Shown here piece after piece: positions 1,491 through 14,442 of a stretch of DNA of 64,000 bases. Below the pieces are notes generated by a model that saw only the letters and a program-made list of their open reading frames with translations, searched no databases and had not been told where the DNA came from. Source of the stretch: Crambe crambe (lineage: Eukaryota > Porifera > Demospongiae > Poecilosclerida > Crambeidae); the NCBI GenBank assembly GCA_963924555.1, contig OZ004589.1, forward strand, positions 4,278,001 to 4,342,000, written 5' to 3'. A program made the position numbers and the translations under genes. Every line of letters begins with the position of its first letter. Position 1 is the stretch's first letter.

Positions 1491-1580
1491 GGGCTAATTT
1501 TTTTTTTGGACGTACTTCCGACTTAGAATTTTTTTCAAGTCCTGATTTAACCTTTCACCCCAACACGGCCACACCCATGC
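1491..1580 (+). repeat. Left terminal inverted repeat of the MULE element
   Basis: Reads GGGCTAA, ten T, GG, a 12-nt insertion, CTTAGAATTTTTTTCAA, about 20 unmatched nt, then ACGGCCACACCCAT. The same blocks occur in the same order in reverse complement at 9500-9553. A run of ten or more G follows near 1597. Confidence 0.75.
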
Positions 1581-2062
1581 ACACCCATGTAGCCGGGGGG
1601 GGGGGGGACGTGACTACCCAGGCCATGTGCCAGTAGCCAGTTAACTTGTGGCAGCACTCACTTTCTTGTTGGCTAGTTGAACTTCCTTGAGTAAGTAAGT
1701 TTATGGTTGTAACGGGGAATGGATGATGGCAGTGATAGATGGTAGCATGGTAGCTATCTATGTCAGTGAGCTGTAACACCTTCAGATCCCTTACTTTATT
1801 TTCAGGCATGTGAGTTGACAAATTGTAGAAGATATCAAGAAAGAGTGAAGTAGATTTTTCTCCCTCCCACTGCTGTGTATTATTACATAGACAGGTATGC
1901 AAGCTACCAGTATTATAAATTGAGAATTTCTACCATTTTTAAGTGTCTACTGTATCCGATATCCTGTCTCTGTCTAGCCAAGTGGTTAATTTTAATATTA
2001 TGGAAATAATAAAGATATGTACCATGTGGAATGGAAATAAAGAGTAACTGTATATAGCTACT

Positions 2063-5000
2063 TCACCATTTCCCAGCATTTTGAAGCCCTTTCATGATAT
2101 TTTGTTGTAATGAGTGTACTCTCTTTCCTTTGGGTTCTTTTCGAATTGGCATGGAATGTACATCCTGTTTCTGTGACAACATTCTAGCCTTCCGTCCAGC
2201 TGGCACTTTTGATTTACCACGTGCAGTGTCTCCTCTCCTGAGAAAAGTTATAAACTCGGAACCAAGAATAAAAAACATCTCAACCTTATCAGGCTAGCCT
2301 AAACTGAACTGTTTGTTGTTTGTATTAATGCCAATGTAATTTTTTTGGTACAAGCCCCAGAAGGTTGATTCAGAAATGTACTATTATGCTGTAATAGAGG
2401 TCCCTAAAGAGCAGAGGTGTCCATTACTTGGATGGGGGGTTGTACTGTAAAGCTATCCTCTATAAAATTGATTATGTACCTTCTGCCAGCAGCTGTAGCT
2501 TGGACTGGAATTCTTTTCCCATGACGAATCTTGCCCTTAGTATATGAGCTTGAGCTCCCACCAAATGTCCATCCAAACTGGTGGAATGCAGAGGCAAGTC
2601 TCACAGTTGATCTTGACTTTGACATGGAGTTGTATCTTTTTAAGAATTTTTTAACACCGTCGATTAGTTGGTTGTCTTCAGAACAAACCAATTGTTTAAG
2701 ACTACTGGCAAAATTATCAATTTCAACCTTTAAATTGTCCACTTCTAAGGGGTCCGATAGTGAGGGATCTAAGTAAGAAATATTCATTATATACTGTAAC
2801 AATCATGCTATTACTGTTTTGGTTTGACATTCTGTCCTATAGCAAAGCGATGTGTGCATGTTTTGCTTTTAGTTACTATAATTATATGATTAATGGTGTT
2901 CACTATATTGACTCTTGAACACTAAGTATTATGGAAATAGAGAAGTGAAGAACTGAAGAACTATGCACTCACCTTTGACTTTATCTTCAGAACAGGCATT
3001 GCTTGGTGTGTTGGATTTTTTAATCAGATCCCATTCAGACTCTTCAAAACTTTGATAGCCTTGAGTATCTTGACTTAGTTTGAACCTCTCCTCATGGGCT
3101 TGTTGGTGCAAAGAGTAATAGAATGAAAGTTGTTTAACTGCTCCACTACCCAGTGCAATGATAGCTATTTTTAGCCTTGCTGTAGCTGAGAGTGTTGCAA
3201 TGTAATTAAGAGATTCAACACCAAAATTCAGCACTACAGCTGCTTGATGTACACATGGGGCGCCACTCATTCCTTGCTCACAGGTGCAAACTCCAATGTT
3301 TACATTCACATCATAAAATTTGTTTTCGTCAACACAACTCCTGACCTTATACCAGATGCCATTTGGGTGCCTGGTAATGTGTTCTTTGTGCACTTTAGTA
3401 GCATTAAGGCCTTGAAACCTTAATGCAATGTAAGTGTCGAATCTGTGGTTAGAAATAGCTACGAGTTTCTTTTGATAATACAACTCCATAATGTCTTGAA
3501 TAAATATAAACATTTCAACAAGATTGAAGGCTTTAACTCTAGAAAAGACCAATTCCTTCAGAATTTTAATTCTGCTTCAGCATAATTGTTAGTGTTATTC
3601 CCCCTTATGAGTAGATTTTTTCTGTAGCAATGTGCCCACATACACCTTTTGTCCCATGTCAGCTTTATGTGTCCAATCAGGTTAGGGTACTTTTTCACAG
3701 TTGGATGGTTCAGTATTTTGCTGTGCAGACTCTGTAAATCTATTTCATTGTCACAATAGACAAGTTTTTTGAAATAACCAATAAGTAATATGCGATCTTC
3801 CTTTTCTCGTATCATATTCTTTCCATCATGAAGCCAAGTCCACTGACGTTGAAGAAAGTGGAAGGTACATAGCAGTATATGGGCTTTTGGCCAACACTTA
3901 CCCAAAGCACTTTTTTCAGCAGAACTGTCATCAATCATGATGATGTCATGGCCTGCATCTGCTCCTTTTCCAAAGAATGCATTTTTTGGTACAATTTTTT
4001 TGAGTAACTGAAGCCCAGTTAGTATAGTTTCTTCCTTTTCATCAGATGTCAAAATAACACCTAATGGGATGCCAGAAGAGACAGAGTGAGTGGATAAGAT
4101 GAATACCGATGTATTAAATCTGTCCATGGAAGAGGAGGAATCACAAAATAAAAGCTCACCAGCTTGGACCACATGCTCATGTGCCCTGGCCATGAGTGGA
4201 GTGCATATTGCTAGAATAAGTGGCTTGTCAGTGGCAGTCTGCTTAGCTTTCTTTTCTGGGGGTGTTCCCTCTGGGTTAAGCTCGTTATACTCATAGCTTC
4301 TTTGCTCAAACCACTGAAGAACTGCTTTCCCATTCTGCTCGTGTTATATCTGGTTATACCTCTCTACCTCAAGCTGCAAGCGCTGAAAGAGTGGTTTGCC
4401 GTCTTCATCTCCATAGTTCTTCTTTCGCCATAGCTGAAAAAGTCTACATATATCTTGAGCAGATGGATTGATTGCTCTATCAGCTAGTGAAATCTGCTTT
4501 GACTCTTCTGTTGCAGCATCAATTAGGAGACGCTGCTCATGCATGTGTCGAGCTGATGATGCGCTATGTCCCTCATCAAATAATTTAAAGAAGGTTTCCT
4601 TTGTTTCATCTGAGATGGAGTGAAAGCTTAATGAATGGCACATACAATAGGGTGGTTGTGGATGAACTTCATCTTTAGAACTGCTGTATGGGTGTGTAGG
4701 TAGGACAGTGAACTAAAAAGCTGTTTATTTGAAGGAATTTGGCCAACAAGTGTCAGCCGAGAAGGACAATTCGTTTTTTTGTCCCTGACCTGCATAGTGA
4801 AAGGTTTTCTTGCCTTCTTAGAGTTAGTGATCATGGCTATTTCCTTTTGCTTCTTGCTCTGGCCTTTTCTAAAATGTTGACAATGCATTTCATACTTGTA
4901 AGCTACCTTCTTCATTAGTGGCTTCTTTGATGTATGTGTAATTCGATATGTACAATAGCTATGAGTCATCATTTTTATCTAGAAAGGCTTTGGCTTCATC

Positions 5001-6370
5001 AGCATTCTTCAAGTTAATGCGGACAACTAAATGAAAATTAATCTTTGGTGCACCTTCAAAATGTAGGGGTTTTTCTTCCTGGTAATTTTCTACAACATAA
5101 GTCCACTCTTCGTCAGAAGGCAAAATAGTCTGTAATGATTGATTAAGTTGTGACCAGCTGATGGGATCTAGCATAGTAGGACATTTCTTCTTTCTAGCAG
5201 TTGTAACAAATTCATTAAACAGCCAAAAAAGAAATATTATATTATGGTACAGCATCCTTTACTCCCAGTGTGTTTTTTTAATTATGATACCGGAACCACA
5301 ATTTTAAATATTTATGGCCTGATATCATGTTAGTGCACCAAGTGTACTTTGAGACCCTGGGGATGTAGCTACTTGTACATACACGGATTTGGTCGTATAG
5401 TGCTAGTTTGGTAATGAGGGTCTATGACTGATTAATTTATAGTGTACTCCCTAGAAATTTCTGAAGGCATACACATCAAAGGGTATTTTGCATTCCATTG
5501 ACCACAACATATGCTTAAGGAATAGTGGGTCCTATGCTAAAAGCATGCTGGGAAGAATACTAGCTTGTATTGGTGACATACCATTTTGAGCTGAAGAATC
5601 ATGGTCAGACAGGGGCTGATAATCAGGTATGGTATTAACAGTAGCACTGGCAAACAGGGAGGTGCCTGACGGAGCAGTGATAGGCTGAGAAGTGCCTGAT
5701 GGAGCAATGGTGAGCTGAAAGGTGCCTGATGGAGCAATGGGAGACTGAGAGGTGCCTGACGGAGCAGTGGGAGACTGAGAGGTGCCTGATGGAGTGGTGA
5801 GCTGAGAGGTGTCTGATTGAGCGGTGAGCTGAGAGGTGCCTGATTGAGTGGTGAGCTGAGAGGTGCCTGACAGAGCAGTGGTGAGCTGAGAGGTGCCTGA
5901 CGGAACAGTGGTGAGCTGAGAGGTGCCTGACAGAGCAATGAGAAAATGAGAGGTGCCTGACGGAGCAATGGGAGACTGAGAGGTGCCTGATGGAGCAGTG
6001 GGAGACTGAGAGGTGCTTGATGGAGTGGTGAGCTGAGAGGTGTCTGATTGAGCGGTGAGCTGAGAGGTGTCTGATTGAGCGGTGAGCTGAGAGGTGTCTG
6101 ATTGAGCGGTGAGCTGAGAGGTGCCTGATGGAGCAGTGAGCTGAGAGGTGCCTGATGGAGCAGTGAGCTGAGAGGTGCCTGATGGAGCAGAGAGAGACTG
6201 AAAGTGTCTGACGGAGCAGTGGTGAGCTGAGAGGGGCCAGATGGAATGGTGGACAGAGAAGTGCCTGACAGAACAGGATTGTTGGCAGAATACTGGACTG
6301 ATGTATGGAGGAACCTCACAGTATAGGGTTCCAAGTATACTTTGGAGTGATAATAGGTTTCTTCTTCCAT
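2063..6370 (-). pseudogene. MULE transposase with FLYWCH/WRKY-like and SWIM zinc fingers, frame-disrupted
   Basis: Reading down the minus strand, the protein shows: a Ser/Thr-rich 9-10-residue repeat region (about 6250-5640); a C2H2 finger of the FLYWCH/WRKY-GCM1 type ending in HNHP (about 4900-4640); a MULE transposase core with LLFCDSSSSMDR, a second acidic block (MIDDSSAEKSALG), a LLCTFHFLQRQW motif and NNYAEAE (4250-3560); a SWIM finger, CTCEQG..APCVH (about 3290-3230); and a basic tail. A GT-AG intron is clear at about 2985-2770 (AAAG/GTGAGT donor). Family knowledge says the acidic residues form the DDE site and the fingers bind DNA. Three one-base frame changes (near 4966, 4632 and 3556) break the reading frame. 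They could be decay or homopolymer errors in the assembly. The N-terminal join of the repeat exon (donor near 5580) to the finger exon is not phase-resolved. Confidence 0.75.
5640..6245 (-). repeat. Minisatellite encoding Ser/Thr-rich repeats
   Basis: About 20 copies of a 27- or 30-bp unit (core GTGAGCTGAGAGGTGCCTGA on the plus strand). Every unit length is a multiple of three. One minus-strand frame reads as SGTSQLT-type repeats, continues into non-repetitive sequence (SLFASATVNTIPDYQP) and ends at a GTATGT donor near 5580. A second frame rich in Leu/Pro/Gln is also open but has no flanking coding look. The repeats probably form a mucin-like linker of the transposase gene. Confidence 0.65.
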
Positions 6371-6464
6371 TGGTGTGTGACTGTTTAGAATCTTAGATCA
6401 TTCCCACTGGCATCTTGTTGGCAAAAAAATTAGAGAGAGAGTTCACGCATGTGAAGAAGAACAC

Positions 6465-7564
6465 TTACAGCAATGATCCTGACAAAAGCTCCTCAAGCAT
6501 TATTTTTCTGAAAATACCCATATGCTTCTGTAATGTATTATTCATGTAACAATCCGTCAGATATTGTGTCAAATAATAATTCTCACCTGTTGATAATTAA
6601 AAGGATAGTCCATGCTCCGATAGAAAATGTACTACAATAGATTGGTTACCAGGAGGTGCTTAGCCTCATTTACAGACTTGCTTCTTATGTTAATGATATG
6701 CCATGGTACATATGCAATTCTAGTTGTGTACATACCTGGCAGACAAACACCCCACAATCGAAGCTGTTCTTTTGCTGAGGAATGTCCTGTAATTAACATA
6801 ATTTGCATCATAGTCTCAAAGTATATTTTTAAGAGCACAGAATGAACTATTAGCAAGTGGTTTACTGCATAATTGGTACTTACCACTCTGTGAATATACT
6901 GCCACTTGTCAAACTTCAAATTTTTGCTCTTGCACTTCAAGAATGACCTTCAATTTTTGCATAGGTGTGTTAATTACTCCATTCTTAGATTGACATACTT
7001 CACATGTGACCAATATGATGGATTGGCCATTCCTAAAGAGTCATAATATTCTGTTTTTTGTCCTTTCATGTCCACAATCTAATTGTATAGCCAAAGTATG
7101 TATAATGTAAGCGCCTAATGAAGAATGGCATACCAATAAAGTCCAATGGCATCCTCCATGGTTGATTGGAAAAAGTAATAAATCTTGCTCAGTTATGATC
7201 ACCTTAATAAGTTAAAAACTAACAACTGATTTATTGTGATACATGCATACATACTTCTTTGTACCATCTTGCCACACCTTTAAACCCCCTTTCAAGGAAT
7301 GTCTGAAGAAAATGTGGCTCAAAGGGTAATATCTGCTTTCCAATCTGCCATAAAAATGTCTTTTTTATTATTTTTAAATCAATAGATGAACTTATACCAT
7401 TCGAGCCTTTTCTGTAACTAGCCTGGCATATTCATGCACAACCTGCAGTTGGGCATAATTATTGCTGGGATCAGTTTCCATTTGTAAATCTACCTGATCT
7501 GTCAGCCAACTTTGTCTCAATAGAGGGCTACAGATGTAGAGGGGTAAGCGTTCTCTTGTTGGTT
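6465..7564 (-). CDS. SENP/Ulp1-like SUMO protease (peptidase C48), transposon-borne
   Basis: Eight exons can be read: 7564-7398, 7344-7255, 7202-7134, 7078-6978, 6947-6884, 6786-6736, 6631-6587, 6527-6465 (stop TAA at 6467-6465). All introns within this list start GT and end AG, and the phases agree. The catalytic pieces of the C48 family are all present: WLTDQV near the start, the catalytic His in NHGGCHWTLL, the catalytic Asp in TEYYDSLG, and the oxyanion Gln plus nucleophile Cys in DIPQQKNSFDCGVFVCQ. The C-terminus YQQKHMGIFRKIMLEELL resembles SENP1/2. The family cleaves SUMO or other ubiquitin-like proteins. No convincing start Met was found; the first exon is 128 bp beyond the last USP-like exon, so this could be the C-terminal half of one long protein. 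The stop codon lies about 95 bp before the transposase exon on the same strand. Confidence 0.82.
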
Positions 7565-7692
7565 CTGAATACCAAGGGTATAAATTAAATTATACCTGGG
7601 GAACAACTACGTACGTCCTTACAACCACAAATTTGAAGGATGGGTTTTATTTTTCATTGCAGCAATGCAGTTTTGGTAATAAGTATGCATAC

Positions 7693-9389
7693 CTCTTGGA
7701 AGGTCATAAATAGCATGAATGGTTCTTGCTGTAACACTGTAGCAATGCTCACTGGAATTACCTGAGATGTATTTTTGGTGATTTTATATTATTATAACTT
7801 ATTTTGTACTACTGTACCTTTGTATCATCCATGTAAACCCAGTGTGCAGGATTAACCAAAGACCTTGTGAAAGCGGTGTAGTGTGCACAATCTTTAAAAA
7901 GCTTTTTGTACGTTATCACACCTGCTAGTGTGTATCGTGTGTGCTTCCCACTAATTGCACATGAAATTGTAGTGCTCTATAATAAAAAGGCACATAGTCA
8001 ATTGTTATTGATTCATGATTATTTACCTGAATTTGAACAGTTTTTCCAGCACCGAAAAGGAATGTATGTTATAGTAAATTTTAGCTACTTTAAATTTTAA
8101 ACTGTGACTGAAATAATCAACCAATTAAAATTTGCTAATAAAAAGTTAGCTTAGAGTATAATCAGCGGAGTATGATGGACCAACCCTTCTTTACTTACGC
8201 ATTGCTAAGTCCCAAGCATAGACAGAGGAGATGAGGTGGTGTGGGGTTGTCGACAGATTTTGCCTTGTTTTTAACGGTGTCTTTGTTACAACTGTAAATA
8301 TAATTCAATTATAGCCCCTTTAAAAGAAAACTTGTACCTATCACAGTGGCTGACCACCTTCTCATCACTCAAAAATGTGTCTAAAAGATGCTGACTCGTA
8401 CATACTGCTGGTAGACTTTCCTATAATCATTCAACACATGCATGCAAGTAAACATAATGTGTTAGTCTTACTTCAAGTTTTGTGTACAGCACCATCTCAT
8501 TAGTTGTATGGGTTGAGGATACCACACCACATGTGGCTGCATGTCAGTTTGCTATTATTACCCACTGCAAAATTAATGACAACATTCTCACTTACAGGTC
8601 TCTGTGTATACCACTGAGAATTCATCCAAATATTCAGTTTGTTGTCTACAAATATCATTGGTGGGTGTAGTAATAATGGAGTTAAAAAGTACTGTGCTGG
8701 CCTTCATTTCTCAAAGTGTTTGGCTAGGAGCACTAGTATATGGCCTGTGAATCGCTGCATTGTGTAATTCAACTTGGATATGGTCTGACTTGAAGCTACT
8801 CACAATCAGCATTGTGCCAACCACTTTGAGAAAATTCTGGCAGTTCAGCAAATTATAAATCTGCTCTATTTTACTCCTCTTGGTCACATACTGGTCTGGC
8901 AGCATATTTAATAGTTTATTAACTAGTCCAATGTAAAATTCGTTAGCGTCCTCTTGCATCCCATAAACCATATTTGGAGTTATGCCTGTAGTATAGGCTA
9001 TGGGTGAAGTCAATTTTTTATCCATAATTGTCCTTACCACCCAGATTACTGAGAAGAGGTTCCAGATCAAGGGGGACTGAATGCTTCAATGAGTAACGAT
9101 AACTTTTCTTTAGCTCACTGATTTCTTTTATAAGCTCTAATTTTTATCAGAAAAAAATTGTTTGTTTATTTTTTTGTGCATATATTTATTTACCTTCAAC
9201 TCCATCACAAATACCCAGGCATCTACACAGCAGCTGAAGAGTTGAATGGTTCATGATGCAATGGACAACACTATTAGCATAGCAGCAATTCTTCTTGCTG
9301 ACAAACCCAGGTGGTTTGGATCGCCAGTCAATGGCATAAATACTAGGAGTGTTTGGAATATGGGTAATTTTTTTCCTTCCTTTTTAGGG
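7693..9389 (-). CDS. USP-like deubiquitinase (peptidase C19), transposon-borne
   Basis: Exons recognised on the minus strand include about 9389-9194, 9136-9038, 8985-8892, one near 8390-8340, one near 8288-8200, 7890-7818 and 7761-7693. The Cys box reads GFVSKKNCCYANSVVHCIMN, the QQD-like box GMQEDANEFYIGLVNKL, and the zinc-binding region HLLDTFLSDEKVVSHCDR followed by CNKDTV. The His box is DCAHYTAFTRS followed by HWVYMDD, and the fold ends in VLQQEPFMLFM. These are the defining blocks of ubiquitin-specific proteases in the correct order. The start codon is not visible (the first exon is open back to a TAA just upstream), and the exon between 8892 and 8390 was not pinned down. Splicing of the last exon into the SENP-like gene is out of phase by my reading, so fusion is unproven. 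Confidence 0.75.
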
Positions 9390-9499
9390 ACAGAGATGCA
9401 CACCTGCTACCTCTAGCCTGGTCCATCTGTTGCTTTCCCGCGAAAGATTACCCGCGAAAAATTACCCGCGTGCAAGTATAAGCATGCGCATGAGCTAAA

Positions 9500-9553
9500 T
9501 GGGTGTGTCCGTATGGGTTGAAAAAAATTCTAAGCCAAAAAAAAAATTAGGCC
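9500..9553 (-). repeat. Right terminal inverted repeat of the MULE element
   Basis: On the plus strand ATGGGTGTGTCCGT (9500-9513) and TTGAAAAAAATTCTAAG (about 9519-9535) lead into CC, ten A and TTAGGCC. These are the reverse complements of the left-end blocks at 1491-1580, in mirrored order. Just outside lies CCTAGCCTAGCC simple sequence. Confidence 0.75.
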
Positions 9554-10677
9554 TAGCCTAGCCTAGCGCGCGCCTGGGGCTGTCCCGGCATAGTCGACCC
9601 GTTTCCATATTATGCGTATACGGTAAAGGGTATCCTACGGATCGACTCCACCGGTATACCCCAGGGTATACCCGGTACCCTGAAAGGTTGGCGCTGCGGA
9701 ATCGAGTGCATCATCATGAAGCTGAACTTTCATCACAAGGTAAATCATAATTGCTAGCTTCTTTTATCTATGATCTGCTGAGCCAGACCTCATAGTCGTG
9801 GAGTGGTGAAATTGAAGAAGCAATATTAACTAAATCTGGTACTCTCTGAGTATCGCTAATCTACTGTTGCAAGTTCAAAGCCTAAGTTACATGCCTGTTT
9901 CATTCCAGTCCACTATACCATTAAGGCATTGCATTATCTTGCTACCAGATATAATAAATGAAAGGCTTACTCCACCATATCCATTTATGGCAATGAATTT
10001 TAGGAAGTGCAGGTAGCTACCTATATACCAGGCACTAATTTACAGTCCTAAGTACAAAATATGTGGGCATGTGACATGGTAACAGGGGTGGATTTAGGTG
10101 GTTTCTTTTACTTCTTAAGAAGTACCCATCTTAATTCACTTCTTAAATTTTTTGCACAGCATTTGCAATAAAACTATTAAAGAATGTAGTGGCGTATCTA
10201 GCGAGGTGCTAAGGGTGCCCCTCTAGCTACTTCAGTAGGCTCACTTCTATAGCAATTAAGCTGATCGTCTAGCAAGTAGCATAAAATTACAGAAAGAGAA
10301 GATCGGGTCAGAGTTCAATAATTTATCAGCGCATGTGCCCCATCATGTTTCTACCCGGTACCGTCATCTCGATCTAAAATCGTTCGTCTGCACTAGTGTC
10401 TCAAACTGAATTCTGACCCTGTACGCTGGCAAAGTAGGGTAGCTACTACTTAAGCTATCTGCCATAATAAAAAGGGTGTGGTTAATCAAAGTGGGCGTGG
10501 TTCTCGGATTTTTCGCACGCGCTTATGCATGCAAGAAGTACCCTTAAGAAATTCCTGGCTCCGCCACTGTGGTAGTTAGTAGCATTAGCATTTTCCATTC
10601 CTTGAAAATTACGTTATGAAATTTCTTATTCAAAAGTATTTTGAGGTTGATAATTCTATTTTCCACAGCATGGAATA
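9554..10677. other. Intergenic with a possible MITE
   Basis: No coding sequence is recognised. The segment 10083-10569 starts CAGGGGTGGATTTAGG and ends with the reverse complement of CAGTGGCGGAGCCAGG (11 of 16 matches). Related AAGAAGTACCC/GGGTACTTCTT blocks lie just inside. This resembles a hAT-like non-autonomous element, but no clean target duplication is visible. A similar phrase (GTGGCGTATCTAGCGAGG) begins near 10191, suggesting nesting. Confidence 0.45.
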
Positions 10678-13600
10678 GTGCTTCTAATTGTGGTCATGAG
10701 TTCAAAACTATGTTCCTCTTGTGTTTTACCTCGAGATTATTCTATTTCATCATCTGGTAATGATTCTCAAGATTGTATTAACAGTAACACCTCTGTATCA
10801 TGTGCTACTCTAGACTACTTGATTAGTCACACACGTACAGATCAAAACTGTTTGGCAATTATAATTTTGGATCCTCAACAGCTATCAGGTAATGTAACAC
10901 TGACAGGTTCACATGATATTTCGATCGTTGGCAGCAGTGTTACAGGACTAGCAGTGGACATACTCTGTGAAGCAAATAGTGGAATCGTATTTGAAAACTG
11001 TGAACATGTTCATCTTGAGAATCTGAACTTTATAGCATGTGGAAGTGATGCTGGATATAGCAAGGACTACTCTCTGCTAACTGAATATGCAGCTCTTTAC
11101 TTTTCAAGAGGAAATGATGTACACATCATTGGGTGTAGTTTCATCAATGGAACAGGAACTGGAATGCTAATGCGTGATGTCACTGGAGACAACCTATTGA
11201 AAAAATGTAATTTCATAGCCAATAAGCCACAAGAAAATATGATGCGTGATAGTTCTATCAATGCAACGTATGGAGGTGTGATTATAAAGCAAGAAAATGT
11301 TTCAGGGGCTGTTAATCATTCATTTGATACTTGTTCTTTCAAAGGAAATGGAAACATTAAAAGTTCTACCTCCAAGGATGGATATGATGAAGGCTTTGGA
11401 GGAGGTCTCTCTCTTTACGTGGGAGCTCCAGAAAGCAAAATCAATATCACCATCTTGAAATCTGATTTTTCTAATAATTATGCTGTTGAAGGTGGTGGTC
11501 TTTATATCAACCAGAGTGGTTACCACTCCAGTATCACAGTGACAGTATCACACACTTTTTTCCGGAACAATTTGGCCTATGGTGAAGGAGGTGGAATTTC
11601 TGTCAATGTAGGCCTAGGCCCATGTCAGTTTACTCTGTCTTTGATTAGGAACTGCACCTTTTCCAATAACACTGCTGATTGGGGTGGAGGATTAGCCGTG
11701 TTTACAGCAAGTCATCTTGCACAAATCAATATCGTGGCTAATTACTCCTACTGGAGCACCAACAATGCAAACACCAGTGGAATGGGTATAGGTCTTTATT
11801 CTGAAACCTCTTTGATTGCAACCTTTTATAACTGTTGGTTTGTGCGTAATTCTAATAAAGGTCTATATGAAAACTTGAATGCTGTGGGTGCAATATATAA
11901 CAGTGGAAGTAAGACACAATTTATTCAGACTTTTTTCACTAATAATCTTGGCACAGCACTATATCTTCGAAATCAGGCATATGCTACCTTCGCAGGTAGT
12001 ATCTCTTTTAGCCATAATCATGGTATTGATGGGGCAGCTATATATGTGGACGAGTCTTCAGTAATCACATTGAGTGAAGGAGTGACTTTAAACTTCCAAC
12101 AAAACTATGCTCTTATAAGAGGTGGAGCTATTTATGCCAAAACATCTGAAAAATTAAATGATACCTGTGTCTTTATGTCATTAAACAAACTCCTTCAATC
12201 TTCAAAAACTTTTAAAGTAATATTTTTTCAGAACATTGCTAATGGTGAGGATCAGTCTATATTTGTGCAGCATCCTGAAAATTGCTTCAGCAGTCCTAAT
12301 GGTAAGACACTACTTCAGGATAGCAGGATCTTTACGTATGATCCCAATGTATCCAGCCAAATACGTGGTCCTGGGAAGAGTATAGTTCTCAACAGCAAAC
12401 CAGAGAAAACGCATGATTACCTTGAAGTAATGTTGGGGGAACAGTTTTCTATAGTTCCTGAAGTACTTGATGCATTTGGTGGGCATTCTCTCATTACAGG
12501 AAACACTATACTGAAATTAAATGATGTTGAATTTCATACAATCAGGAGATTTGAGCTAATTGGGCCACGATATATTGGAATGGATGATTTTACTAAGGAT
12601 AATAAATTTTATATTATTGGAAATAAAGACTTTGTAAACGATGATTATACTGACTTATCCTTTGAGTTCATATACAGTAAGGAAGATACTGGTTATCGTG
12701 ATAACAGTGTTGTGCTAAATATCAAACTGAAAAAATGCAAACTTGGATTTCAATATGTAAACAGTTCAAAGAAATGTGAATGTCAAAGCAAAGATCAAGT
12801 CTTATTGTGTTCTCCTTTTGACGACTATGCCTGCATCAAATATGGATACTGGTATGGATATCACAACCAAACTGCTGGTGATTTTTTCCCTTGTGCTGGA
12901 CTACAATGTGACTATTTTGATGGAAAATGTCCACAATCTGCAGATTGTCCAAATACTCCAGGGTTTTGTGAATTGAGTCAGCCAGATGATCTATGTTTTA
13001 GCAATGACAGAAATCATAGTGGACGAGGTGGACTTTTATGCTCAGAATGCAGAGAAAATTACTCCTTCACTTTCTCAGCTCTCTACTGTGTGCCATCCGA
13101 TACTTGTACAATCAGAAACACTACTCTCATTGTCCTGGGATTAGTCCTTTATTGGATAGTAATTATCATATTCGTACTTTTTATCCTTTGCATAGACCTC
13201 AGTATTGGTGCTGGATTCATGTATGGTATCATCTACTTCTTCAGTGTGGCCACTTTATTCACTGATAATTTTGTCACTGATTCATTTCTTCTAGTCGTGA
13301 TGAACACATGTGTAGCCGTAACTCAACTCTCTCCACGTTTCTTTGGAGATATCAAGGTGTGCTTTACCAGAGATTGGAACTTGAATTTACATCACTTAGT
13401 CTTTCGTTATGCTACACCTCTGTTTGTCATTGCTATGATAGTGGCCATAATTTGGCTATCACGTTGTTGTCGATGCCCTAAGAAAATATCTCTTGCCCAA
13501 AACTCCCCCATTCATGCAATATGCATGCTTATTCTCTTCTCGTACACTGAATTGACTTACACGAGCTTTGAAATACTTACACTGATAATTATTAAAGATA

Positions 13601-14442
13601 ATGTTTATGTGAAATCAGATCCAAAACTTGCTTACTTCCACAAAGAGCACATTCCCTATGCTTTAGTAGCGCTATTTATCGAATGTTTCATTTCACTTCC
13701 AATATGTATACTGCTCTTGCTGGCTCCATGTCTTTCCAATCGAGTGAATATAGTGAAACTGAGACTTAAGCCCTTCCTAGATGAATTCCAAGCATGCTAT
13801 CGTCCAAAATGTCGCTGGTTTGCAGGCTTTTATTTCCTAACTCGGCAGCTGATGTTCTTGACCACTACAATTCTAGATTTAGGATGGGTACATAGTAATA
13901 CCATGCCAGGAACCGTAAGTATAGCCATATTAGGCATACACTGTATATTTCAGCCATACAAATCAAAATGGTTGAACATATTGGACACCGTTTTACTGAT
14001 TGATATCACACTTTTATCTTTTGTTCGGTTGGATTCTGCCTCTCCAAATATTATGTCTAAAGTCACTCTGTATGCCTTGATCTTGATCCCATCCTTGTAT
14101 CTATTAGTGGCAATATTATTGGTATTACTTAAGCGAATCTTTATTTTTCTTAAGTCCCATCACTGGAATAATTGCATACACAAGAAAACAAGTCAAGTCC
14201 CTCCTGTGGTACCCACTGTTACTTCTGTCAATATCGAGGGTGAAGATGTAACTGAGGCTACAGATAGTGAATCATTTTTAGATTCTTTCTATAAAGACAC
14301 TGGTGAGCGTGAGCCATTACTCTCAGAGAATGATTCTGAAAAGCCTCACAAAAAGCGGAAGGATGCATTCACAACCAACAGTTTGAGGATCACTGGGATG
14401 AAACATTTCCCACCACGCACCAATAAAACTACCACTAATTGA
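10678..14442 (+). CDS. Beta-helix ectodomain / multi-pass membrane protein, paralogue A
   Basis: A single long exon of about 1,250 codons ends in TGA. Residues about 60-640 carry repeated GGGL.../N-rich units typical of right-handed parallel beta-helices (pectate-lyase/Pmp-like fold). Residues about 685-830 are Cys-rich (CECQSKDQVLLC onward). About seven to nine hydrophobic segments follow, the first TLIVLGLVLYWIVIIIFVLF, and the tail is acidic (EDVTEATDSESF). Together these suggest a surface receptor or adhesion protein; no ligand or signalling role can be claimed. The open frame begins at a GTG (10678-10680), with the first in-frame ATG at 10696, which would remove the hydrophobic leader. 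The CACAG just before CATGGAAT (about 10662-10669) looks like a splice acceptor, so a short upstream first exon is likely. Confidence 0.82.
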   Translation: MLLIVVMSSKLCSSCVLPRDYSISSSGNDSQDCINSNTSVSCATLDYLISHTRTDQNCLAIIILDPQQLSGNVTLTGSHDISIVGSSVTGLAVDILCEANSGIVFENCEHVHLENLNFIACGSDAGYSKDYSLLTEYAALYFSRGNDVHIIGCSFINGTGTGMLMRDVTGDNLLKKCNFIANKPQENMMRDSSINATYGGVIIKQENVSGAVNHSFDTCSFKGNGNIKSSTSKDGYDEGFGGGLSLYVGAPESKINITILKSDFSNNYAVEGGGLYINQSGYHSSITVTVSHTFFRNNLAYGEGGGISVNVGLGPCQFTLSLIRNCTFSNNTADWGGGLAVFTASHLAQINIVANYSYWSTNNANTSGMGIGLYSETSLIATFYNCWFVRNSNKGLYENLNAVGAIYNSGSKTQFIQTFFTNNLGTALYLRNQAYATFAGSISFSHNHGIDGAAIYVDESSVITLSEGVTLNFQQNYALIRGGAIYAKTSEKLNDTCVFMSLNKLLQSSKTFKVIFFQNIANGEDQSIFVQHPENCFSSPNGKTLLQDSRIFTYDPNVSSQIRGPGKSIVLNSKPEKTHDYLEVMLGEQFSIVPEVLDAFGGHSLITGNTILKLNDVEFHTIRRFELIGPRYIGMDDFTKDNKFYIIGNKDFVNDDYTDLSFEFIYSKEDTGYRDNSVVLNIKLKKCKLGFQYVNSSKKCECQSKDQVLLCSPFDDYACIKYGYWYGYHNQTAGDFFPCAGLQCDYFDGKCPQSADCPNTPGFCELSQPDDLCFSNDRNHSGRGGLLCSECRENYSFTFSALYCVPSDTCTIRNTTLIVLGLVLYWIVIIIFVLFILCIDLSIGAGFMYGIIYFFSVATLFTDNFVTDSFLLVVMNTCVAVTQLSPRFFGDIKVCFTRDWNLNLHHLVFRYATPLFVIAMIVAIIWLSRCCRCPKKISLAQNSPIHAICMLILFSYTELTYTSFEILTLIIIKDNVYVKSDPKLAYFHKEHIPYALVALFIECFISLPICILLLLAPCLSNRVNIVKLRLKPFLDEFQACYRPKCRWFAGFYFLTRQLMFLTTTILDLGWVHSNTMPGTVSIAILGIHCIFQPYKSKWLNILDTVLLIDITLLSFVRLDSASPNIMSKVTLYALILIPSLYLLVAILLVLLKRIFIFLKSHHWNNCIHKKTSQVPPVVPTVTSVNIEGEDVTEATDSESFLDSFYKDTGEREPLLSENDSEKPHKKRKDAFTTNSLRITGMKHFPPRTNKTTTN

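Follow-up and report, generated by a model that had tools for sequence, protein, structure and literature searches.

Mutator-like elements (MULEs) that carry a Ulp1 (C48) protease domain have been described from plants, as the Kaonashi/KIU Vandal elements of Arabidopsis and in grapevine, melon and rice, and also from Hydra and the lancelet Branchiostoma (PMC13317346, PMC2836005). Here we describe a DNA transposon from the sponge Crambe crambe that encodes a ubiquitin-specific protease (USP, family C19) as well as a C48 protease of the Ulp1/SENP type, both beside a MULE/SWIM transposase. The element occupies positions 1491–9553 of the 64,000-bp stretch that we analyzed (the window; C12:4278001–4342000 of the 143-Mb assembly, where C12 is contig OZ004589.1), and positions below are those of the window unless a contig is named.

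The plant Kaonashi/KIU elements resemble it in being MULEs with a Ulp1 (C48) domain (PMC13317346, PMC2836005). They are described, however, as elements without terminal inverted repeats (TIRs) and with Ulp1 inside the VANC gene, whereas the sponge elements have TIRs and a USP as well, with both proteases upstream of the transposase and probably in the same gene. The MuDR elements of Hydra and Branchiostoma, known here through the description of Repbase reports in a citing paper, likewise combine a MULE with Ulp1, and that description mentions no USP (PMC2836005). Ginger1 joins a transposase to a Ulp1 or an OTU protease domain, but its transposase is of the integrase type and its protease is C-terminal and of one kind or the other (PMC2836005). 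The Trichomonas protein XP_001314237.1 joins a C19 domain to a DNA transposase, but one of another family (transposase_11), and the account of it mentions no C48 domain (PMC2836005). Helentrons may also bear a deubiquitinase, of the VTD or OTU-like type, but they are rolling-circle elements and these are other protease families (PMC9741609). An initial annotation of this DNA, made from its letters alone, had pointed to the Ulp1 genes of plant MULEs, in agreement with the literature, and knew of no MULE with a deubiquitinase next to a deSUMOylase. We likewise found no MULE with both USP and Ulp1 in the open-access literature that we searched. What appears to be new here is the pairing of USP and Ulp1 beside one MULE transposase, together with an unusual target duplication; Ulp1 in MULEs was already known.

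Domains and gene structure of the element

The coding parts all lie on the minus strand, as first annotated, in the order USP, C48 protease, S/T/P-rich repeat linker and MULE/SWIM transposase. The C19/USP domain spans several exons (7708–9338), with an apparent frame change in the first; its Cys box lies at about 9314–9250, the motif QEDANEF near 8956, the His/Asp region at 7976–7815 and the final exon at 7773–7708. The C48 domain, also in several exons (6468–7508), carries WLTD near 7508, CHWTLL near 7151, YYDSLG near 7048 and DCGVFVCQ at 6792–6724, and its final exon (6524–6468) has a GT donor at its end. It is followed by the linker (5532–6392), which is built of 27/30-bp tandem repeats and carries, ahead of them, a ‘YLEP’ stretch common to two related families of elements in the same genome (A and B, described below), and by the decayed transposase (2404–5258).

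Pfam searches of the window, with stops in the frames read as X, gave matches just below the cut-offs for C48 (E=9.7e-4), UCH (E=0.0059) and MULE (E=6.8e-6; PF10551 read through, 26.9 bits against a cut-off of 27.6). Because introns and frame changes cut the domains, and such a search misses spliced domains, these low scores are no evidence of absence. When exons were joined by hand, the UCH domain was matched at 2.5e-24 in family A, 5.1e-30 in family B and 1e-10 in the window, and the C48 domain, over the cut-off in each, at 2.2e-16, 4.7e-16 and 1.4e-23. The catalytic motifs of the window USP read NCCYANS, QEDANEF and AHYTAF...WVYMDD, and those of its C48 domain WLTD, CHWTLL, YYDSLG and DCGVFVCQ. 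A, B and the window each show motifs for both proteases, and the C48 His, Asp, Gln and Cys motifs (HWTL, YYDS, QxNxxDCGVF) are found in a third family, C, as well. Judged by these features, the first domain, a UCH domain that has both the Cys and the His box, classifies as a C19 protease and the second as a Ulp1/SENP protease. The family A USP has its best matches in USP2 (1.9e-9) and USP36.

The transposase frames of families A, B and C contain the MULE DDE domain PF10551 over its cut-off; the SWIM domain PF04434 passes its cut-off in A, gives a signal short of it in C and is not listed for B, and a SWIM-type CxC...CxH motif was found in all three and in the window. In the window both this motif and the domain signal bear out the annotated MULE/SWIM transposase, though it is frame-broken: overlapping frames reveal three or more frame changes (near 4970, 4700 and 3570), and an in-frame stop (4344–4346) also interrupts it. 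The frame of the USP Cys box has an upstream stop, and a frame change is apparently needed to reach a start. The two proteases had been called complete-looking, a description that is right as to two domains with readable catalytic motifs but too strong for so decayed a copy. We conclude that the window copy, probably an old autonomous element, is decayed and now a pseudo-element.

Inspection by eye placed GT donors at homologous positions after WLTDE/Q and EELLSGSLL (in A, B and the window) and after HWTLL and DCGVFVxQ (in A, B, C and the window). The exon that follows the EELLSGSLL donor includes an ‘LEP’ stretch common to the window and families A and B; in the two families this exon continues in one frame into the transposase. 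A frame-keeping GT-AG option was available at 14 of the 16 family A exon joins, in a permissive test run with no control. These shared exon borders suggest that USP, C48, linker and transposase are likely to belong to a single spliced gene, which would make them parts of a single fusion protein.

That all parts apparently lie in one long spliced gene also suits a different proposal, that the C48 protease (and perhaps the USP) processes the element's own polyprotein in the style of the adenovirus-type proteases and does not have ubiquitin or SUMO as its target; the window domain does give a weak Peptidase_C5 (adenain) signal (E=0.056) beside C48. We regard such processing as quite unlikely, since among solved structures the family A C48 domain is nearest to SENP5, SENP1, SENP3 and SENP2 (best matches SENP5, at 2.3e-16, and SENP1, which is matched to its C-terminal end), and processing should not need two different protease families.

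Recurrence and families in the sponge genome

Genome searches gave 54 MULE matches and 98 UCH matches (UCH threshold E 1e-3), and 13 of the 54 MULE matches had a same-strand UCH match no more than 8 kb upstream, where random placement would yield about 0.08. Counting only the nearest UCH match gives 12; the thirteenth is at C12:3316364, whose UCH partner lies 4175 bp upstream, at C12:3320832. The 13 fall into three families (five in A, five in B and three in D) with near-constant spacing within each, and the USP, C48 and transposase exons are collinear in A, B and the window, between transposases that are 34% identical (A and B) or 35–46% identical by piece (A and the window). Elements of this group do adjoin one another's ends, as might chance neighbors or nested unrelated insertions, but this recurrence, spacing and collinearity make such an origin hardly credible, and we rejected it.

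Family A has copies at C5:2.62M, C10:3.91M, C12:3.31M (two, in tandem) and C12:3.54M (placed by its USP and C48 matches). The C5 copy is 8.5 kb long, with inverted repeats of 113 bp at 96% identity that reach about 25 bp beyond the border common to the other A copies. Aligned noncoding sequence differs by about 1% between copies, and long BLAST stretches are 94–97% identical. Stop-to-stop frames measure 1328 aa at C5 and 1200 aa at C10, and a C12 copy is frame-broken; family A linkers contain a repeat similar to the minisatellite in the linker exon of the window. The tandem pair (L031:1106–8805 onward; C12:3.307–3.322M) stands head to tail, with a single GGAGC between the copies and a period of 7707 bp.

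Family B is found at C10:6.39M, at C16:0.736M and at three places on C9. Its C10 copy is 6.2 kb long and has a 933-aa frame and a perfect 51-bp inverted repeat unlike that of family A; the two copies that were read, on C9 and C10, are 99.6% identical over 4158 aligned bases. Families A and B are young and keep the order of USP, C48 and transposase, both catalytic centers and large open transposase frames. The expectation that the domains would recur in other copies held for these families, the first with the terminal motif of the window and the second with different ends, so that it is not the case that such repeats never accompany the proteases. It did not hold for family C, which is without USP, and is uncertain for the C48 domain of family D. 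The annotated observation itself is confirmed and, setting the role of the proteases aside, the interpretation given in the initial annotation is supported.

The family C copy at C14:0.84M is 4.4 kb long, with a C48 domain that begins just inside the terminal repeat and a 963-aa frame; a sister copy at C14:1.84M is without the C48 core. Family D (C1:4.33M, C3:2.91M and C14:4.29M) combines a USP with a ZSWIM/MULE-type transposase, shows a C2H2 signal under the cut-off at C1 and C14, and has a visible C48 Cys motif in its C14:4.29M copy. In the C1 copy the first USP exon is preceded, at a distance of about 180 bp, by an A-type terminal motif, and the genome motif search listed none at the C3 or C14:4.29M copies. 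A tree of six transposase rows supported one of three inner branches, and so accommodates either loss of USP in family C or its gain in the others.

Other loci resemble these in part. Family E (C18:4284883–4289508, with C14:2.94M, C16:3.94M, C10:4.00M, C8:3.28M, C1:7.37M, C11:5.07M, C11:5.32M and C9:6.10M, which share 96–98% identity with it) has a UCH match upstream on the same strand at all nine places and a listed C48 Cys-box stretch at seven of the nine, the Cys box being all of C48 that is seen; the 2 kb read at C18 contained no Pfam domain, and no MULE or ZSWIM match lies nearby. A short high-copy repeat (AGGCCACATCAAATTAATTA...) apparently interrupts a family E copy (L040:1909–2001), and similar sequence is found in an intron of the C5 family A element. 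Three MULE matches, at C8:2.35M, C5:7.57M and C19:5.25M, have weak upstream matches to the C48 end or Cys box (E 0.001–0.19), with no UCH match at E 1e-3 within 8 kb. Searches for relatives in a viral contig collection (129 stretches) and in a genome contig collection (57 stretches) confirmed none.

Ends, deleted derivatives and target duplications

The inverted repeats annotated as enclosing the element do pair, imperfectly, along three segments: 1491–1509 with 9535–9553 (19 nt, 95%), 1522–1538 with 9518–9534 (17 nt, 100%) and 1560–1578 with 9499–9517 (19 nt, 84%). The repeat at the transposase (3') end reads GGGCTAATTTTTTTTTTGGAC... and covers 1491–1578 on the plus strand; that at the USP (5') end covers 9499–9553 on the minus strand and is shortened by internal gaps. 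The terminal motif GGGCKAATTTTTTTTTTGGAC occurs 35 times in the genome at up to one mismatch, and its reversed control does not occur.

The ends of the window element recur in the genome, unlike its interior. The interior (about 8374 to 2226) has short matches only, in a search that skips simple repeats: two places on C14 match over 141 bases at 73%, and stretches of 67–133 bases match at eight places, with no DNA-level match to family A or B loci. We took 20 loci (matches of at least 60 bases at E 1e-5). In five of these (L010–L014) the 3' end and the greater part of the 5' USP portion are present and most of the interior is lacking, while diverged stretches of both portions occur in L016, L018, L020 and L021; the segments present in copies without the interior correspond to window positions 8399–9517 (the first USP exons) and 1489–1914, both on the minus strand. 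We read these end-sharing loci as probable internally deleted derivatives. Within one nonautonomous element the right terminal repeat stands three times in succession (L014:3868–4305).

The initial annotation had expected other copies with identical ends and 9-bp target duplications. The ends recur as described, but the duplications are of 5 bp: with the terminus set at GGGC, identical 5-bp flanks were found at six of nine copies (L010, L011, L012, L014 and the family A copies at C10 and C12) against 3 of 72 cross-pairs, a count in which one of the two matching ends was used for L014, a copy with three candidates for its right end, and in which the C12 copy borders its tandem sister. The C5 copy, the C14 copy and the window have no exact match; in the window the left flank TGGCC (1486–1490), a presumed 5-bp duplication, agrees with the right flank TAGCC (9554–9558) at four of five positions. 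No duplication signal appeared at 3–4 or 6–9 bp (nine copies against 72 cross-pairs), and L014 also fits 10 bp (one of nine copies; 1 of 72 cross-pairs). One family B copy has, by eye, a 7-bp duplication (TTGTGCT).

The elements have a DDE transposase domain, a SWIM motif after it and TIRs, as MULEs do, and they do not show the 8–11 bp target duplications reported for Mutator (PMC6446971). Because their duplications are of 5 bp instead, we term this a MULE-transposase element rather than a canonical Mutator. The TIRs set it apart from the non-TIR Kaonashi/KIU (Vandal) class, and the transposase in the window and in families A, B and C sets it apart from Pack-MULEs, which hold captured host sequence without one. 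The 5-bp excess over cross-pairs, with nothing at neighboring lengths and in place of Mutator's 8–11 bp, might instead point to a separate lineage with a MULE-like transposase that is not Mutator proper, duplicating 5 bp (A and window type) or 7 bp (B); in that case the pair of proteases would characterize a new lineage. We consider this unlikely, given the MULE domains over cut-off in A, B and C, the SWIM domain of A, the long inverted repeats and the 10-bp match at L014.

Beside the element, the window contains a plus-strand open frame of 1262 aa (10654–14442) with no Pfam domain over cut-off.

Possible roles of the two proteases

Our preferred reading, which we hold to be probable though well short of certain, is that the window contains an old, decayed copy of a group of MULE-transposase transposons in which one gene encodes, from N- to C-terminus, a USP, a SUMO protease of the Ulp1/SENP type, a linker of low complexity and a MULE/SWIM DDE transposase, and in which the proteases would strip ubiquitin and SUMO. 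By analogy with related systems, the two proteases would travel with the transposase to the element ends, where they could free the transposase itself, or silencing and repair proteins at those ends, of both modifiers. Such removal would stabilize the transposition complex and counter SUMO-dependent silencing. Taken alone, removal of both modifiers near the transposase, a role that the initial annotation had raised as speculation, is the likeliest one for the pair, and we propose it tentatively.

Several accounts are in keeping with such a role. Plant Vandal MULEs with a Ulp1-bearing VANC are described as relieving silencing and methylation of their own kind (PMC13317346), ubiquitin and SUMO pathways have been proposed to act in transposition, with repair also suggested (PMC2836005), and SUMO is reported to promote Argonaute-directed silencing in C. 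elegans (PMC8131101). A bolder version, in which a MULE lineage has fused a single transposase to two deconjugating enzymes and so erases SUMO- and ubiquitin-dependent silencing at its own ends, as a built-in anti-silencing machine, seems to us doubtful.

Substitutions were compared among three family A copies, where all ratios of nonsynonymous to synonymous rates rest on few changes. Between the C5 and C10 copies the transposase has 7 nonsynonymous and 7 synonymous changes in 898 codons (ratio 0.26) and the C48 domain 4 and 4 in 200 codons (0.27); the corresponding ratios are 0.34 and 0.68 between C5 and C12, and 0.05 and 0.41 between C10 and C12. For C48 these changes are too few to prove selection.

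A number of observations weigh against the preferred reading. The USP shows no purifying selection among the three recent A copies, with 7 nonsynonymous and 1 synonymous change in 275 codons between C5 and C10 (ratio 1.8, at the noncoding rate of 19/1851), 5 and 1 between C5 and C12 (1.3), and 2 and 0 between C10 and C12. The USP Cys box, in frame in the B copy at C9, is broken by a frame change in the B copy at C10; the family C copy at C14:0.84M has no USP; and in family D the C48 domain is uncertain (local E 0.025 at C1, 0.003–0.033 at C14:4.29M and nothing useful at C3), with no Pfam C48 match at C1 or C14. The 13 USP–MULE pairs are copies of three families rather than 13 independent events, and the other 41 of the 54 MULE matches have no UCH match at E 1e-3 in reach, including that of the window, which falls outside the 13 because its UCH score was too weak in the genome search. 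Two of the 16 family A exon joins have no frame-keeping option, which exons missing from the reconstruction could perhaps explain. Finally, what Ulp1 does in the MULEs of plants has been called unknown (PMC13317346).

Some of these points would suit USP and Ulp1 as captured pieces of host genes, carried as passive cargo in the manner of Pack-MULEs without a role of their own: the excess of nonsynonymous changes in recent A copies of USP, the family without USP, and the several derivatives in which only the first USP exons are left. We disfavor this account as improbable, since order and catalytic motifs are kept across families whose transposases are only about 34–46% identical, and the carriers possess a transposase, unlike Pack-MULEs. 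Survival of the catalytic motifs over that divergence would argue for long-term selection on the USP.

Isopeptidase domains (Ulp1, OTU and others) recur in unrelated transposons, and their role there is a long-standing question (PMC2836005, PMC13317346). A group of elements in which one transposase is accompanied by both a USP and a SENP, and which offers young copies as well as a natural relative without USP, makes the role of these isopeptidases testable, and the pairing of a USP with a SUMO protease may perhaps be a way to escape host silencing.

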